A DNA stretch of 64,000 nucleotides from Thermococcus radiotolerans (GTDB lineage Archaea > Methanobacteriota_B > Thermococci > Thermococcales > Thermococcaceae). How positions within the stretch are numbered: the first letter of the stretch is position 1; each line of letters begins with the position of its first letter. The notes below the pieces were generated by a model. That model ran no database searches. It was not told where the DNA came from and worked only from the letters and a program-made list of their open reading frames with translations. The stretch spans positions 682,001-746,000 of the forward strand of contig NZ_CP015106.1 of the NCBI RefSeq assembly GCF_002214565.1, written 5' to 3'. Of the stretch, positions 17,831 through 38,261 are shown one piece after another. The position numbers and the translations under genes were made by a program.

Positions 17831-17925
17831 AAAAGTATATATACCCTAACCGGGTAGAAAGTCATTGACAATACATATTAGACCATCCCAGGGCGTAAGC
17901 CCAAGATTAAGGAGGTGTTGGGAAA
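17831..17925 (+). promoter_or_regulatory. Strong promoter and structured 5' leader of the S-layer gene
   Basis: The TATA element AAAAGTATATATACC (17831-17845) is the best in the window. Directly downstream lies an inverted repeat TACCC-TAACC-GGGTA (17842-17856), placed like an operator between TATA box and predicted start (about 17865). The leader is about 60 bases, unusual where most transcripts look leaderless. It holds a hairpin GGGC-GTAA-GCCC with a GNRA-type loop (17891-17902), seven bases before the full ribosome site AAGGAGGTG (17909-17917). Confidence 0.65.
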
Positions 17926-19797
17926 ATGAAAGTGAAGAAGATCGCGGCCCTTGCAATTGGTGCCGCAATGGTTGGAGCCACCATGGGCTTTGCCAGCGCT
18001 CAGCCGACCGTTCCGAACATACCGAAGGACTTCTTCGTTAACGCCGATGGAACCCCGAACGTTAAAATCGTCGTTGGAAGTACCGCTGCTGCTATGGACG
18101 TTGCCAGCGCTGCTGACATCGCCGTTGCCCTCGGCAGCATGCTCTACACTACCGAGCAGGCCGAGGTTCAGAACGGCTACGTCAAGGTCAAGGCCGAGTA
18201 CGAGCCCGAAGATGTTCAGGGTTCTCCGTGGACCATTTACAAGTACAACTATGACACCATAAGGAACCAAACCGCCTGGGCCACTAGCTACGACGACCTT
18301 CCGGGCGACTACTGGTGGAACGGTGCCGGTGGTTACGACGCCACTTACGGCGGATGGAAGAGCGTGTTTGAAGTTACCCCAGAGATACCCGACATGGATA
18401 AGATCGTGTTTGAAGTTACCCCAGAGATACCCGACATGGATAAGATCGGTGATGAGCAGCTTATTGACTGGGCTATAACCATCAAGAACATCGAACTCAA
18501 GTCCAAGGATCCAAGTGACTGGGACCAGAGCCACCCACCCAAGGACGCTGACCTCGTTATCACCCAAGGCAACGTCACCGTCTTCGTTGACTACAAGCTC
18601 TACAACTACACTTACACAGAGACCTCCACGGTCAGGGACGCCTACCCCGAGTGGGGCGTTCCTTCAGAGGATGAGACTGTAACCAAGTGGGTAATTGGAG
18701 ACGCCGACGACGTTCCTGCCAACCTCGTCAGCAGCGAGGTTTACAGCGAGGGAGTCGGCGAAGGTGACACCTTCACCGTGTTCGGACAGACCTTCTACGT
18801 CCTCAGCGTTGGAAACGACACCTTCACCGCGGGTCTCGACAAGGGCGAGGCCTGGTACCAGGTCGGCCAGCCGCAGGCCATCGAGGGCACCGACTGGATA
18901 GTCACCGTCCTCGATATAAGCATCATCGACCAGAGGGCCCTTGTCGTCGTTAAGAACGCCGTCACCGGCCAGGAGAGCGACCAGAAGATCCTCGAGGAAG
19001 GCCAGGATGTTGACATATTCGAGGATGGAAGCGTCGTCCTCACCCTGCTCGACACCTTCGTCGGTATCGACGGCCACCTCATAGCCAGCATCGCTGCCAG
19101 GGTCGACGTCGTTGACTGGTCCAGCGGAAAGACCATCACCTACGACGGCAAGGAGTGGGAGATGACTATCAACACAGCCAACATCAGCAACAAGTGGTAC
19201 ATAACCAACATAACCCTCACCAACAAGGACACCCTCGAGGGCAACCCGGTCGACATCTTCGGCACCTACAACCTGTTCTACAAGTTCGAGATGAAGAAGC
19301 TCAACGAGAAGTGGCTCAGCGACCAGGGCTACTCAGACACCCACGCCGACATCGACGGTGACGGCACCATCGAGGACAAGGACTTCATCGTCGCCTACGC
19401 CTACATCTGCCTCAAGGAGAAGGAGGGCAAGGTTGTCGAGAAGGAGCTCAAGGTCGGCGACGACGTCCTCGACACCGACTACAAGGTCGCGGGCATCTAC
19501 GGTGACGTGGTCACCCTCAAGCCGATCACCAGCCCGATAACCGTTATGGACTACGAGGTCGACATGGAGGACCCCGGAGCGAACCTCATCCTCATCGGCG
19601 GTCCTGTTGCCAACAGCCTCACCAAGTACCTCGTCGAGCAGAACATCAGCCAGGTCGACTGGTACAACAGCCCAGGCGACATCGAGTACATCCAGGACGC
19701 CCTTGGCGGCTACGACGTCGTCATCGTCGCTGGTGCCACCAGGGACGAGACCAAGGTCGCCGCTGAGGCCCTTATGGAGTACCTCGCTGGCCTCTGA
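17926..19797 (+). CDS. S-layer protein
   Basis: The major cell-wall protein by homology: 623 residues with signal peptide KKIAALAIGAAMVGATMGFASA and predicted cleavage before QPTVP. After the N-terminal S-layer domain comes a long beta-rich, acidic, Thr/Asn-rich middle with several N-x-S/T sequons. The C-terminal domain (about 545-623) contains LILIGGPVANSLT and VVIVAGATRDETKVAAEAL, the conserved S-layer C-terminal region seen in Thermococcales and Methanococcales. Codons are strongly C-ending, as expected for high expression. A perfect 42-bp tandem repeat (18364-18447) duplicates 14 residues in frame. The promoter and ribosome site are exceptionally strong. Confidence 0.9.
   Translation: MKVKKIAALAIGAAMVGATMGFASAQPTVPNIPKDFFVNADGTPNVKIVVGSTAAAMDVASAADIAVALGSMLYTTEQAEVQNGYVKVKAEYEPEDVQGSPWTIYKYNYDTIRNQTAWATSYDDLPGDYWWNGAGGYDATYGGWKSVFEVTPEIPDMDKIVFEVTPEIPDMDKIGDEQLIDWAITIKNIELKSKDPSDWDQSHPPKDADLVITQGNVTVFVDYKLYNYTYTETSTVRDAYPEWGVPSEDETVTKWVIGDADDVPANLVSSEVYSEGVGEGDTFTVFGQTFYVLSVGNDTFTAGLDKGEAWYQVGQPQAIEGTDWIVTVLDISIIDQRALVVVKNAVTGQESDQKILEEGQDVDIFEDGSVVLTLLDTFVGIDGHLIASIAARVDVVDWSSGKTITYDGKEWEMTINTANISNKWYITNITLTNKDTLEGNPVDIFGTYNLFYKFEMKKLNEKWLSDQGYSDTHADIDGDGTIEDKDFIVAYAYICLKEKEGKVVEKELKVGDDVLDTDYKVAGIYGDVVTLKPITSPITVMDYEVDMEDPGANLILIGGPVANSLTKYLVEQNISQVDWYNSPGDIEYIQDALGGYDVVIVAGATRDETKVAAEALMEYLAGL
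18364..18447 (+). repeat. Perfect 42-bp tandem duplication inside the S-layer gene
   Basis: Two identical 42-base units (18364-18405 and 18406-18447) each encode VFEVTPEIPDMDKI. There are no mismatches, including third codon positions, which points to a recent duplication or an assembly artefact. The reading frame is kept. Confidence 0.97.
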
Positions 19798-28228: not shown

Positions 28229-30112
28229 ATGGCGTACGATTACGAAAAGCTCGGTCTCAAGGTCGGTCTTGAAATCCACAGGCAGCTGGACACCAAAAAG
28301 CTGTTCTCACCCGTCCCGAGTGAGCTCAGCGACGAGGTTGAGTTCACCTTCCAGCGGAGGCTCAGGCCCACGATAAGTGAGCTGGGCGAGATAGACCCGG
28401 CTGCGCTGGAGGAGTTCAAGAAGGGTAAGAGCTACATCTACGAGGGCAACCACCTGCTGGCGGACCTTGTCTACATAGACGAAGAGCCGCCCCACATGCC
28501 CGACGAGGAGGCGCTCAGGGTTTCCCTCCAGATAAGCTACCTCTCCAACGCCACCCCTGTTGACGAGGTTCACTTCATGCGCAAGATAGTCATAGACGGC
28601 TCCAACGTCTCCGGCTTCCAGAGGACCGCGATAATTGCTATGAACGGAAAGGTCGACACCCCCTGGGGGAGCGTCGGCATTCCGACGATCTGTCTGGAGG
28701 AGGACGCGTGCCGTATCGTCGAGAGGAGGGAGAAGGAGGTAATCTACCGCCTCGACCGCCTGGGAATCCCGCTCGTTGAGATAGCAACAACGCCGGACAT
28801 ACACCACCCGGAGCAGGCGAAGGTCGTGGCCAAGTACATAGGCGACGCGCTGAGAGCCACGAGAAAGGTCAAGCGCGGTCTCGGAACCATCAGGCAGGAC
28901 CTCAACGTCTCCATCAGAGGGGGAGCGAGGGTCGAGATCAAAGGTGTGCAGGAGCTGGACATGATACCGGTCATCATCGAACGCGAGATTGAGAGGCAAC
29001 TGAGTCTGCTCGAAATCAGGGACGAGCTCAAAAGGAGGGGAGTCAACCCCGAGGACATAAAGGAAGAGTTCCACGACGTTACGGATATATTCGAGAACAC
29101 CGGCTCGAAGATAATAGCGAGGACGATAAAGAGGGGCGGAAAGGTTCTGGCCGTTAAGCTCCCCAAGTTCCGTGGGCTTATAGGGAAGGAGATACAGCCC
29201 GGAAGAAGGCTCGGCACCGAGATGGCCGACAGGGCCAAAAAGTACGTGAAGGGCATCTTCCACATCGATGAATTACCGAACTATGGAATTAGGGAAGAAG
29301 AGGTCAAGGCCGTCGTCGAGAGACTCGGCCTCGGAGAGGAGGATGCCTTCGTTCTCGTTGCCGCGGAGGAGGCGACCGCGAAGAACGCTCTCCGGGAGGT
29401 TCTTCAGCGCGCGAGGGAGGCCATCGAGGGAGTGCCAGAAGAGACTAGAAGGGCCCTGCCGGACGGAAACACCCAGTACATGCGCCCGCTCCCGGGCAAG
29501 GCCAGGATGTATCCGGAAACAGACATACCGCCGATATTGATAACCAACGAGATGAAGGACGAGATACTAGCGAATCTGCCGGAGCTGCCGCAGGAACGCG
29601 TTGAGCGCTACGTGAAGGAGTACGGAATAGACAGAAGCCTTGCCGAGACCCTCGTCAACGACGAGCGCGATGAGCTCTTCGAGGAGCTGATAACCAAGGG
29701 CGTCAAGCCGTCCCTGGCGGCCTCGATACTCGTGGTGGTCCTCAAGGGGCTCAAGAAAGAAGTTCCCATCGAGAACATCACCGATGAGCACATCAAGGAA
29801 ACCTTCGACCTCTACCTGAAAGGGAAGATAGCCAAAGAGGCCTTCGAGGAGATATTCAAGGAGCTGGCAAAGAACCCGAAGAAGAGCGCCGCCCAAGTGG
29901 CGGAGGAGAAGGGCCTGACACTCCTGAGCGAGGAAGAGGTCGAGAGGATAATAGACGAGGTCGTTCAGGCGAACATCGAGGTCATCAAGGCCAAGGGAAT
30001 GGGCGCAATGGGCATGATCATGGGCAGGGCAATGGCGAAGCTCCGTGGAAGGGCGGACGGGAAGCTCGTCAGCTCACTCGTGAGGAAGAAGATTCAGGAG
30101 GCCGCTTCCTGA
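28229..30112 (+). CDS. gatE: Glutamyl-tRNA(Gln) amidotransferase subunit E
   Basis: The kinase/transamidase subunit (627 residues), which phosphorylates the tRNA-bound glutamate and amidates it. It begins with the cradle domain motif [10 protein letters not shown], then VYIDEEPPH and [11 protein letters not shown]. GatE has an AspRS-like insertion domain (about residues 265-400), present here. The C-terminal helical and YqeY-like tail binds the tRNA outer corner. GAGGTGAT at the end of gatD is the ribosome site, so both are co-translated. Length is normal. Confidence 0.97.
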
Positions 30113-30127
30113 GCCCCTCTTTTTTCA

Positions 30128-30811
30128 TTAAACTCCCAGGAACTTGCGGACTTTGAATTTTAGATAACCAAAAAACGCACTATTGAGGTAGGAGTCCGTC
30201 GAATGGGTGTAGAGCGTTCTTGCTATCCTGTGATCTTTGAAGTGGAGAAACGCCAGCTCCCGGAGATCCTTTTTATCAAACAGCAGAATCGTGTTGGCAA
30301 GCACCCGGGCCCCAAAAGCGTCCAGCGGGTCATAACGTATCCTAGCGAGCTTCCGCGGGGTTCCTATTTTAATCCGCCTGTAGTTTCTGGCGATTATCTC
30401 GTCGATAAGTGTGAAAGTCCCCTTTCTAAATCCTGCAGGATGGTCTTTGATCTCGATCTTTGTTGGCTGAACCACCTTATCGAGCACGTAATACTCCGGG
30501 AACAGCTTTTCGCGGATTTTAACCAGCTCAAGAAGATTGAAAAGTGCGGTCAGATACGTCTCGATAACGGTTTCGGGGATTATATCCAGGTAGTAGAACT
30601 CGTCCAGCAGGGCCCCCTTTCCCTCCGGACATTCCATTCGCAGAAGCTTTGTTCCGTGGGAATCCACGATGTAAAGACCGCTATCGAGGAGAAAGCTCTT
30701 GTAGGTAGGGAACTGGATAACCGCGTCCGCGAACAGTAGCTCAAACAGCTTCGAAGTCGAACTTACGAGCATCGATTTGCACTTATGTCCCCCTATTTCA
30801 ACCGGGATCAT
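30128..30811 (-). CDS. Unknown protein, AT-richer than surroundings
   Basis: No family recognised. The 227-residue frame starting at ATG 30811 (MIPVEIGGHKCKSM) has the composition of a soluble protein with alternating beta and helix. It contains VIETYLTALFNLLELVKIREKLF, a likely amphipathic helix, and a basic C-terminus (KFKVRKFLGV). The frame is open to 31060, but the upstream part contains low-complexity sequence and crosses the promoter of the divergent gene, so a shorter start is chosen. Base composition and codons are more AT-rich than gatE and hmgA, suggesting acquisition or fast decay. It may form a divergent pair with the gene at 31025. Confidence 0.6.
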   Translation of the reverse strand: MIPVEIGGHKCKSMLVSSTSKLFELLFADAVIQFPTYKSFLLDSGLYIVDSHGTKLLRMECPEGKGALLDEFYYLDIIPETVIETYLTALFNLLELVKIREKLFPEYYVLDKVVQPTKIEIKDHPAGFRKGTFTLIDEIIARNYRRIKIGTPRKLARIRYDPLDAFGARVLANTILLFDKKDLRELAFLHFKDHRIARTLYTHSTDSYLNSAFFGYLKFKVRKFLGV

Positions 30812-31024
30812 TGGAGACTCCCCAACGTGTATTGGAAAATCCCCTAAATTAACCTTTCTTCGACCCAATGTCGAAAAATCAGTAGAAATGCCAACAAAAG
30901 TGGGCAACTGAAAATTCAAAACCCAAAAATGGTTACAGAGGGAACCCGCTAAAATAGGGGTTTCGGAATCACGGGACCGTTGAACCAAGGTGAAAGTTTT
31001 AAACTCTGAAGAGTATTCAGTACG
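30812..31024. other. AT-rich divergent intergenic region
   Basis: This 213-base spacer separates two unknown genes. A rightward TATA box AGTTTTAAACTC (about 30990-31001) lies 25-30 bases before ATG 31025. A leftward TATA-like TTAATTTA (about 30843-30850) could serve the gene at 30811. I see no RNA gene. Confidence 0.45.
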
Positions 31025-31678
31025 ATGGGCACCGCGGGGAGATTCCAGTCGATTCTCCATGGGTGGATGGGATCGAAGAAGTCCCTCAAGTACATGAGGG
31101 TTAGGTGTGATATTCTATCCGAATGCATAAAGCGGACTGAGGGACTTCTCAACTCAGAGGGAATACGCTACTCGCGGCTGATCGATCCGGACTCGTACAT
31201 GATAACGGCCATGGCAGAGCCTTTTTACGAGAGGGGCAAATTTTTAGGGGTACTAGAGCTGGGGGATGAGCTGAGCCGTGCGTTCTACCTGATCGAGTCG
31301 GACATCCCGATAAACCTCAAAAACATTCCCGGACTGGAGTTCACCATAGCCTTTAGGGTGCGGAAAAAGGAGGGACTGACCGCGCTTCTAAGGATCATAC
31401 ATGAAGGAAAGGTCGGCGGGGCGAGACATAAACACCGCTCCACGCTGAACTTCCTCACCAGCTTCTTGGGAAGCCTCTTCCTGTCCACGGTAATGGACTT
31501 CGAGAGCTATTGGGCCCAGCTCCTCATCATGCTAATTCTGACGGTCCTTCTGTTCCTGGTACTCGACTACCCCTTCTCGCTGCTCTACTTCAAGGGCGTT
31601 GAAGTCGTCTCAGAGGCAGAAACATCAACGAATGTCTTCGTTCTCAAGATTAAGCTGGAGGAAAAGAAAAGGAGCTAA
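31025..31678 (+). CDS. Unknown protein with C-terminal membrane helices
   Basis: No family recognised. A 217-residue protein with a soluble N-terminal domain (about residues 1-135, mixed beta/alpha, containing YSRLIDPDSYMIT and FYLIESDIPINLK), then two hydrophobic segments (about 140-160 and 164-188) forming a hairpin, and a short C-terminal tail rich in Lys. The mRNA is leaderless (TATA box near 30995). It is slightly AT-richer than neighbours, like the divergent gene at 30811. The last four bases overlap the convergent hmgA stop. Confidence 0.68.
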   Translation: MGTAGRFQSILHGWMGSKKSLKYMRVRCDILSECIKRTEGLLNSEGIRYSRLIDPDSYMITAMAEPFYERGKFLGVLELGDELSRAFYLIESDIPINLKNIPGLEFTIAFRVRKKEGLTALLRIIHEGKVGGARHKHRSTLNFLTSFLGSLFLSTVMDFESYWAQLLIMLILTVLLFLVLDYPFSLLYFKGVEVVSEAETSTNVFVLKIKLEEKKRS

Positions 31679-34939: not shown

Positions 34940-36445
34940 ATGGAGCTAAGCTACCAGGAAAAACTCACGCTCATAAAGCTCAACGAGGTTAAAAGGGTCA
35001 AATTCGACGAGCTCGTCGAGAAAACCGGCCTCGACCAGGTCGCGGTCATGCGCTCCGTCCTTGGACTCCAGAGCAAGGGACTGGCGAGGCTCGAGGAGAG
35101 AAGCGAAAGGATAGCGAAGCTAACCGAGACCGGGAGAAAGTACGCGGAGATAGGCCTCCCCGAGTGGAGGGCGCTGGCCGTTCTGAGGGAGAGGGGAAAG
35201 ATAACCCTGGACGACCTGAGGGACGTTCTCAGCGAGGATGAGCTGAAACCGATAGTGGGCCTTCTGAGGAAGGAAGGCTGGGCATCCGTGCGGAAAGAGG
35301 ACGGGAAGCTCGTTCTTGAAATCACCGAGAAGGGCATGGAAGCCGGGGAGAGACCCATTGATAAAGCCCTCAAGCTCCTCGCCGAGAGGAAAGTCGTACC
35401 CCTGGGTGAAGTTGAGAAACTGGTTCCGGCCAAGGAGCTTAAGAGGAGAAAGATAGCCGAGGAGGACACGGCAACCGAGAGGTTCGTGGAGATAACTCCC
35501 GAGGGAGAAGAGCTCGTGAGGAAGGGCCTTGAGCTGAAAGAGGAGGTCTCGACCCTCACCCCCGAGCTGATAAAGTCCGGCAAGTGGAGGGAAGTCGAGT
35601 TCAAGCGCTTCAACATCCAGGCCCCGGTAAGGAGATTCTACCCAGGCAAGAAGCAGCCATACAGGGCTTTCCTCGACAAACTGAGGAGAAGGCTAATCGA
35701 GATGGGCTTCATAGAGATGACCGTTGACAGCCTTATAGAAACTCAGTTCTGGAACTTCGACGCCCTCTTCCAGCCCCAGAACCACCCTGCCAGGGACTGG
35801 ACGGACACGTACCAGCTCAAATACCCGAAGAGCGGCCACCTGCCCGGGGAAGAGCTGGTTGAAAGGGTGAGGGCTTCCCACGAGCACGGAGGAGACACAG
35901 GCTCCAGGGGCTGGGGCTACGTCTGGTCGCCGGAGAGGGCGATGCTGCTTATGCCGAGGGCGCACGGAACGGCGCTCAGCGGCAGACAGCTCGCTAAAGG
36001 CGTCGAGATTCCGGGGAAGTACTTCACAATCCAACGCGTCTTCCGTCCGGACGTCCTCGACAGGACACACCTCATAGAGTTCAACCAGGTTGACGGCTTC
36101 GTCGTCGGCGAAGACCTGACCTTCAAGCACCTCCTCGGAATACTCAAGCGCTTCGCGGTGGAGATAGCTGGAGCGAAGAAAGTCAAGTTCCTGCCCGACT
36201 ACTACCCGTTCACGGAGCCGAGCGTCCAGATGAGCGCCTACCACCCGGAGCTCGGCTGGGTCGAGTTCGGTGGGGCTGGAATATTCCGCGAGGAGATGAC
36301 CAAAGCCCTGGGCATAGACGTTCCGGTCATAGCTTGGGGAATAGGAATAGACAGGCTTGCTATGTTCAAGCTCGGAATAGACGACATACGCTACCTGTTC
36401 AGCTACGACCTGCGCTGGCTTAGGGAGGCGAGGCTCGTCTGGTGA
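34940..36445 (+). CDS. pheS: Phenylalanyl-tRNA synthetase alpha subunit
   Basis: The catalytic subunit (501 residues) of the heterotetrameric PheRS. The N-terminal 200 residues hold two or three winged-helix DNA/tRNA-binding-like domains typical of archaeal and eukaryotic PheS. The class II core includes motif 2 ([19 protein letters not shown]) and motif 3 (GWGI-like [12 protein letters not shown]). AAGGAGGTGG precedes the ATG. pheT follows with 10 bases between stop and start, in the same operon. Confidence 0.97.
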
Positions 36446-36455
36446 GGTGATGGGG

Positions 36456-38261
36456 ATGCCAAAGTTCGACGTTTCCAAGGCTGATCTCGAGAGGCTGGTA
36501 GGAAAGACCTTCACCGTGGAGGAGTGGGAGGACCTCTTCCTCTACGCGAAGTGTGAGCTGGACGACGTCTGGGAGGAGAACGGTGAAATCTACTTCAAGG
36601 CAGACTCAAAGGACACCAACCGGCCCGACCTATGGAGCGCCGAAGGTATAGCGAGGCAGATACGCTGGGCGCTCGGCTTCGAGAGCGGTCTTCCAAAATA
36701 TGATGTTGAGGAGAGCGGCGTAACCGTTTACGTTGACGAGAAGCTGAAGAACATCCGTCCCTACGGTGTCTACGCGATAGTTGAGGGGCTGAGCCTCGAC
36801 GAAGAGGCACTCAAGCAGATGATAAACCTCCAGGAGAAGGTCGCCCTGACCTTTGGAAGGAGGAGGAGAGAGGTAGCGATAGGAATCTTCGACTTCGACA
36901 AGGTGAAGCCTCCAATCTACTACCGCGCCGCTGAGAAGAGCGAGAAGTTTGTTCCCCTCGGCTTCGAGGAGGAGCTTACGCTGGAGGAAATCCTCGAGAA
37001 GCACGAGAAGGGGAAGGAGTACGGCCACCTGATCAAGGACAAGCCCTACTACCCGCTCCTCGTGGACAGCGAGGGCAAAGTTCTCTCGATGCCCCCGATC
37101 ATAAACTCCGAGATAACCGGCAGGGTGACCACCGAGACCAGGAACGTCTTCGTTGACGTGACCGGCTGGGATTTGAAGAAGATAATGCTGGCTTTAAACG
37201 TCGTTGTTACAGCACTGGCCGAGCGCGGCGGGAGGATAAAGAGCGTTAGGGTAGTCTATCCTGAAGATGCGGATGTCTATCTTGCCCCTACTATCATTGC
37301 TCAATTTTTTGATGATTTCAAGTCTCATGAAGATGTGTGGCATGCCGTGAGAAATCTTTTGGGTTGGAAGGTAATCGAGAGCCCCGACTTAACCCCGAAG
37401 TCCTTCGAGGTCGAACTGGACTACATCAAGAGACTGACGGGGCTCGAGTTAAGCGATGGGGACGTGAGGAACCTTCTGGAGCGCATGATGTACGATGTCG
37501 AGTTGGTTGACGGGAAGGCGAGGCTACTCTACCCGGCCTTCCGCGACGACATAATGCACGCCCGCGACGTTCTGGAGGATGTCCTCATAGCCTATGGCTA
37601 CAACGAGATTGAACCCGAGGAGCCGAAGCTTGCCGTCCAGGGCAGGGGCGACAAGTTCATTGAATTCGAGGACGCCGTCAGGGAGCTTATGGTCGGTTTC
37701 GGCCTGCAGGAGGTCATGACCTTCAACCTCACCAACAGGGATAACCAGTACACGAGGATGAATCTCCCCTGCGGGGACTACTCCAACCATCCACCCGCTG
37801 AGCTCGTCGAGATAGAGAACCCGATAAGCCCCAAGTGGTCGGCGCTGAGGGGATGGCTCACCCCGAGCCTGCTCGACTTCCTGAGCCAGAACACCCACGA
37901 GGAGTACCCGCAGAGAATCTTCGAGGTCGGAAAGGTCACGCTGATAGACGAAGGCAGAGAAACGAAGACCGTGAGCGAGAGCAAGCTGGCCGTTGCCCTG
38001 GCCCACCCGCGCGTAACCTTCACCGAAGCCAAGGAGATACTGGAAAGCGCCATGCGTCACCTCGGCTTCGAGTACGGGCTTGAAGAAATAGAGCATCCAA
38101 GCTTCATTCCTGGCAGGGTGGGGAGAATCATCGTGAACGGGAAAGAAATCGGCATCATCGGGGAAATCCATCCGGCAGTCCTAGAAAACTGGGGAATAGA
38201 AATGCCAGTGGCGGCCTTTGAGCTGTTCCTGCGGCCGCTCTACAGGGAACCCTACCTCTAA
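36456..38261 (+). CDS. pheT: Phenylalanyl-tRNA synthetase beta subunit, with an insertion
   Basis: The beta subunit of 601 residues, carrying the B3/4 editing domain (around KDTNRPDLWSAEG and GRRRREVAIG), the B5 domain and an inactive class II core. It appears about 45 residues longer than Pyrococcus homologues as I remember them. Most of the excess is at about residues 269-305 (bases about 37254-37373), just before the B5 domain, where the expected short link between RVVY and PDLTPKSFEVEL is replaced by about 38 codons. That segment is visibly AT-richer and uses T-ending codons unlike the rest of the gene. A second small excess lies near 37765 (CGDYSNHPPA). The ATG at 36456 is chosen over GTG 36447 because GGTGAGGTGAT fits it. 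Confidence 0.93.
   Translation: MPKFDVSKADLERLVGKTFTVEEWEDLFLYAKCELDDVWEENGEIYFKADSKDTNRPDLWSAEGIARQIRWALGFESGLPKYDVEESGVTVYVDEKLKNIRPYGVYAIVEGLSLDEEALKQMINLQEKVALTFGRRRREVAIGIFDFDKVKPPIYYRAAEKSEKFVPLGFEEELTLEEILEKHEKGKEYGHLIKDKPYYPLLVDSEGKVLSMPPIINSEITGRVTTETRNVFVDVTGWDLKKIMLALNVVVTALAERGGRIKSVRVVYPEDADVYLAPTIIAQFFDDFKSHEDVWHAVRNLLGWKVIESPDLTPKSFEVELDYIKRLTGLELSDGDVRNLLERMMYDVELVDGKARLLYPAFRDDIMHARDVLEDVLIAYGYNEIEPEEPKLAVQGRGDKFIEFEDAVRELMVGFGLQEVMTFNLTNRDNQYTRMNLPCGDYSNHPPAELVEIENPISPKWSALRGWLTPSLLDFLSQNTHEEYPQRIFEVGKVTLIDEGRETKTVSESKLAVALAHPRVTFTEAKEILESAMRHLGFEYGLEEIEHPSFIPGRVGRIIVNGKEIGIIGEIHPAVLENWGIEMPVAAFELFLRPLYREPYL
37254..37373 (+). other. AT-rich in-frame insertion within pheT
   Basis: Bases 37261-37370 have about 42% G+C by hand count against clearly higher values on both sides. 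The codons (TAT, CTT, ATT, GCT, CAA, TTT, GAT, TCT, CAT) contrast with the C/G-ending codons of the gene. A 7-base direct repeat GTCTATC (37254-37260 and 37275-37281) lies at its left edge. The segment keeps the frame and encodes a peptide including APTIIAQFFDDF. Confidence 0.7.

Follow-up and report, generated by a model that had tools for sequence, protein, structure and literature searches.

A short AT-rich in-frame insert in the B3/4-B5 linker of Thermococcus PheT that may have moved between species by short-patch homologous recombination

The pheT gene of Thermococcus radiotolerans, which encodes the PheRS beta subunit, carries an AT-rich in-frame insert in the short linker joining the B3/4 and B5 domains, and related inserts are found at the same site in two non-sister genomes of the family. 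Our preferred explanation, to which we assign a probability of roughly 0.55, is that the insert represents an alternative PheT linker allele that has been moved between species by homologous recombination of short patches. For core translation genes, vertical inheritance and constant length are the expectation; here, related inserts seem to have been gained independently in at least three lineages of an essential synthetase, apparently via very short recombination patches. Throughout, the window refers to the whole stretch of DNA analysed, 64,000 nucleotides of contig NZ_CP015106.1, and positions are counted from its first letter.

Results

In the window, pheT lies at 36456..38261 on the plus strand, and its product scores above the Pfam cut-offs for PhetRS_B1, B3_4, B5 and tRNA_synthFbeta, giving the expected content of B1, B3/4, B5 and catalytic-like domains, and matches P. 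horikoshii 2CXI with an E-value of 2.1e-187. Read from its ATG (MPKFDV), the protein has 601 amino acids, 34 more than a typical Thermococcus PheT, and an in-frame GTG is located upstream of the ATG at 36447. The partner gene pheS (34940..36445, plus strand), identified in the list of open reading frames by translation and position, is ordinary. DNA alignment with the closest relative found, G067, ends at 37264 and restarts at 37377. The insert at 37265..37376 (plus strand), supported by these BLAST break-points, nucleotide alignment, composition and an AlphaFold model, encodes EDADVYLAPTIIAQFFDDFKSHEDVWHAVRNLLGWKV and is followed immediately by the B5 domain (37407..37601, plus strand; Pfam B5, residues 319-383). 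The unaligned stretch measures 112 bp in the window versus 10 bp in G067, a net gain of 102 bp, or 34 codons, in frame. In relatives the linker reads RGGKIKSVKVVYPDFEIETPDLTPK, including YPDFEIETPDL, and in the window RGGRIKSVRVVYP-EDADVYLAPTIIAQFFDDFKSHEDVWHAVRNLLGWKVIES-PDLTPK. The original prediction, made from the sequence alone, had placed the insert and its frame correctly to within a few bases, and the short Pyrococcus linker that it described was also accurate, with P. horikoshii 2CXI aligning across the site and about two residues replacing the insert.

The 40-codon stretch containing the insert has a G+C content of 42.5% versus 56.9% in the rest of pheT and a GC3 of 0.375 versus 0.768, and this stretch overlaps the part of pheT where G+C is lowest. 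The original prediction had noted low G+C and T-ending codons here, against C/G-ending codons in the surrounding pheT. Because 16 of the 3456 40-codon stretches within the 64-kb window have a G+C of 0.425 or less, this composition is by itself uncommon, not unique. An imperfect 10-nt direct repeat, GTCTATCCTG/GTCTATCTTG, is present at the left edge of the insert (37254..37284, plus strand; 9 of 10 identical, spacing 21), and a second direct repeat, TCCTGAAGATG/TCATGAAGATG, is identical at 10 of 11 positions with a spacing of 66. The 7-base repeat that had been predicted at this edge does exist, as part of the 10-nt repeat, but the direct-repeat count is only mildly above chance, being reached in 3 of 100 mononucleotide shuffles. 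No target-site duplication brackets the insert, the direct repeats sitting inside it or at one edge, and the left-edge repeat is probably incidental.

Elsewhere in the window, the open reading frames starting at 30130 (minus strand), 5784 (plus strand) and 52114 (minus strand) contain stretches with an AT content close to that of the pheT insert, and the DNA alignment with G067 breaks from about 30100 to 31271, suggesting a variable gene there. A gene at 17910-19794 (plus strand; G+C 0.57) contains a 14-residue in-frame segment, VFEVTPEIPDMDKI, with a G+C of 0.45, which is missing from G001, G014 and G053.

A search across the family detected the pheT region in 87 of the 94 Thermococcaceae genomes, and only three of these carry an insert at the linker site: the window genome (G000), G001 and G073, the last being a MAG, apparently WAKU01000080.1. 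In the remaining 84, including G067, the genome closest to the window genome, the linker is nearly invariant and the match resumes directly after it; the segment is not one that most Thermococcus PheT proteins carry with normal composition, which would have refuted the original prediction, and this outcome is in its favour. The genomes with no region match, such as G071, hold only fragments of pheT in draft assemblies, which look like missing data and not like a pheT interrupted by an insertion. All three inserts are open multiples of three, with net lengths of 102 bp (34 codons) in G000, 81 bp (27 codons) in G001 and 105 bp (35 codons) in G073, and with their edges they read PEDADVYLAPTIIAQFFDDFKSHEDVWHAVRNLLGWKVIE, PDMDINELVSYLAPDVEDKLRTIEKLTDWLVIE and PESTDVYEASVIIKDLLDTHRSSPETVWLLVKEMLGWPVWE, respectively. 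The corresponding insert GC3 values are 0.375, 0.18 and 0.49, compared with 0.77, 0.78 and 0.70 in the remainder of each pheT.

On the pheT contig of G073 (C80), a pair of genes for DUF4258 (toxin-like, with weak BrnT similarity) and DUF2283 is located between pheS and pheT (L177:9270-9780); by DNA alignment this pair is absent from the sister genome G076, and in the window pheS and pheT adjoin. A further segment of about 600 bp on the same contig (L177:490-1140) has no counterpart at the corresponding position of G076 and, by eye, looks like a VapBC-type toxin-antitoxin pair.

At the sequence level, the inserts of G000 and G073 are clearly homologous, with 46% identity over 41 amino acids (BLASTP E=1e-10) and an alignment z of 10.7. 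The G001 insert is probably homologous to both, an assignment that rests on few residues, with an alignment z of 4.0 against G000 when the shared tail is left out and no detection against the other two by BLASTP alone. The resulting family comprises inserts of 27-35 net residues, likely helical hairpins, with a W.V.E motif at the end. Base identity between G000 and G073 is 53% in the inserts versus about 83% in the pheT genes, as expected if the alleles were separately sourced, and a codon-position test for protein-level constraint on these two inserts gave a weak signal (p 0.07).

In the AlphaFold model of the window PheT, the insert is predicted as a helix-turn-helix-strand hairpin, with helices at 278-288 and 292-302 and a strand at 305-309, at low to moderate confidence (pLDDT of 55-63 rising to 80). 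The rest of the N-terminal half of the model superposes on 2CXI with an rmsd of 1.4 and a TM of 0.97 by target length, leaving the insert as an extra segment, and the G001 insert is modelled as two short helices with a pLDDT of 45-60. We interpret the insert as a small helical hairpin that is placed on a surface linker and that PheRS would tolerate. A comparison of five syntenic regions, each of about 60 kb and together holding about 95,500 codons of sister-matched genes, showed the two pheT inserts as the only lineage-specific in-frame insertions of at least 15 residues; since no other insertion of that size occurs there, the recurrent related inserts in pheT are not background.

In a pheT codon tree computed without the insert columns, the partner of G000 is G067, that of G001 is the group of G013, G004, G054, G058 and G069, and G073 stands with G080 and G076. 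An EF-2 tree gives the same partners for G000 and G001 and places G073 with G076, and all sisters of the three carriers are insert-free in both trees. AU tests rejected a clade of all three carriers (p 1.8e-72) as well as a grouping of G000 with G073 (p 1.1e-6), so that a lineage-specific signature indel was discarded. Three gains compare with 14 Dollo losses if the insert is ancestral. Each of these losses would have to recreate the outgroup linker; about three independent gains are the simpler account. Related inserts at one site in non-sisters point to repeated sideways transfer over a one-off accident.

A DNA search of the window genome recovered no further copies of the insert, and an insert-profile search of 94-115 genomes of the family and class found only the pheT copies above chance, a phylum-wide run covering the same 115 genomes as the class. 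The weak extra hits (E about 0.01-0.06) span 16-18 residues or read across a stop codon and resemble chance matches. Phage, plasmid and viral-contig collections contained no match to the insert, and no terminal inverted repeats were found at it. A Pfam scan of all three inserts, intein included, and an Rfam scan of the insert gave no match, the RNA fold of the insert was no better than that of shuffled sequence (z 0.46), and the intein hallmarks of a Cys or Ser at the insert start and a His-Asn before the junction were not observed. We accordingly set aside a transposon or MITE scar, given neither inverted repeats nor a target-site duplication; a mini-element of the Rickettsia palindromic kind, given no copies in other genes and no palindrome or strong hairpin; and an intein, given no splicing or endonuclease domain and no terminal residues. 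With nothing similar elsewhere in these genomes or in the phage, plasmid and viral collections, a dispersed mini-element, an intein or an intron is unlikely, and the mini-element remnant of the original prediction, of which neither the genome nor the family holds a second copy, was not borne out. An archaeal mRNA intron is disfavoured indirectly by the sequences themselves, as the three inserts are open and in frame and two are conserved as protein.

Divergence between carrier and sister along pheT reaches its maximum, or comes close to it, in the 45 bp adjoining the insert (0.22, 0.44 and 0.38 in the three carriers). When the 48 bp on each side of the insert were compared with the rest of the gene, using 20 insert-free control pairs as reference, the flank excess was about 3x (2.5-3.0) in both G001 (p 7e-7) and G073 (p 2.5e-6), exceeding all 20 control pairs (maximum 2.2x), and 1.6-1.9 in the window genome (p 0.016 for the ratio of 1.9), which is within the control range. 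The kilobases around the pheT patch display ordinary divergence. The raised flank divergence in G001 and G073 is expected if recombination replaced a short pheT patch with a diverged, insert-bearing copy; in the window, the possible imported patch, comprising the insert and about 48 bp on each side, spans 37216..37424 (plus strand), with a flank excess that is weak here and significant in the other two carriers. Among the sampled genomes, no pheT matches the flanks of the three patches above 0.80-0.88, and the flanks do not cluster with each other; a missing donor is nevertheless compatible with import.

Discussion

The related inserts in two further non-sisters, together with the signs of imported flanks, lead us to favour the exchange, by homologous recombination, of a pheT allele that bears the insert. 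This allele of the B3/4-B5 surface linker would have been acquired independently in at least three Thermococcus species, homologous recombination each time replacing about 100-200 bp of pheT, insert included, from an AT-richer, unsampled, insert-bearing donor pheT. The recombination route, for the window genome as for the others, and the reservoir of insert-bearing donors are what we infer from these patterns. PheRS would tolerate the insert because of its position in a surface linker that leaves the B1-B5 core unchanged, and its role may be near-neutral or a mild surface or interaction role, and not a catalytic one. The recent acquisition of DNA proposed in the original prediction fits a segment that is AT-rich, absent from nearly all relatives and located inside an otherwise vertically inherited gene. 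Natural competence and the release of vesicles carrying DNA have been reported for members of the Thermococcales (PMC3543421).

Site-specific mobile DNA, in which a small element, an integrase or a homing nuclease acts on this pheT site time after time, leaving an in-frame insert as a scar or a cut-resistant allele, is the less likely account to which we give most weight after exchange by recombination. Three independent hits in a short linker of otherwise constant length would be natural for such an agent, and the repair of breaks also predicts flank divergence resembling that of recombination; however, neither dispersed copies nor inverted repeats, target duplication or any viral, phage or plasmid match accompany the insert, and in the window pheS and pheT lie next to each other and the site has no neighbouring element. 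An insert that was ancestral in Thermococcus PheT, lost often, perhaps by recombination with insert-free alleles, and fast-evolving where kept would explain why distant carriers have homologous inserts of low mutual identity. We consider it improbable, because the 14 losses would each have restored the same length and a near-identical outgroup DFEIET linker, and because it leaves by itself the AT-richness and the raised flank divergence unexplained.

Slightly less credible still is selected variation, in which the insert alters a surface seen by some antagonist or partner, such as a toxin, a viral factor or another protein, and arriving alleles are favoured. The recurrence at one surface site against a background of about 95,500 codons with no other such insertion and the sequence pattern shared by the G000 and G073 inserts agree with selection, but a site that is merely tolerant of insertions could also be hit repeatedly, and the constraint test is weak. 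As for an archaeal mRNA intron, an intein remnant or an assembly artefact, a clean AT-rich insertion in a core gene is what each might look like; the probability is very small, given three inserts that keep the frame without stops, shared protein sequence in two of them, the negative Pfam, Rfam and folding results, and occurrence in three independent assemblies. A more speculative extension of the exchange reading is that a family of short coding inserts is exchanged between Thermococcus species at this one pheT site as a long-lived presence/absence polymorphism, under an agent acting on the site or the surface (a nuclease, integrase, virus or toxin) or by a homing-like process. If true, this would be an exchanged module confined to one site in one gene and smaller than any intein.

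The pheT insert offers a small, tractable example in which to ask why exchange recurs within essential genes of hyperthermophiles, and it carries a warning that such indels can mislead as lineage markers. Conserved signature indels have been discussed as lineage markers (PMC3417386); like them, the insert occupies a fixed position in a conserved protein and is flanked by conserved sequence, whereas its scatter over three clades with insert-free sisters means that it defines no clade. The insert also resembles the inteins of Thermococcales core genes in being recurrent, site-specific and in frame within an essential gene, and differs in its 27-35 net codons, in having no intein or endonuclease domain and in residing in a linker instead of an active-site motif. 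Rickettsia palindromic elements are selfish palindromic repeats dispersed across many genes. An in-frame Rickettsia palindromic element has been noted (PMC5656822). The pheT insert, like these, adds tens of codons in frame within a protein gene, but it occurs at one site in one gene, with no second copy and no palindrome. A further likeness is to mosaic genes produced by intragenic homologous recombination after natural transformation, with which pheT shares a foreign-like, divergent patch within a vertically inherited gene; unlike those, the pheT patch adds an extra segment and was apparently imported at least three times at the same site.
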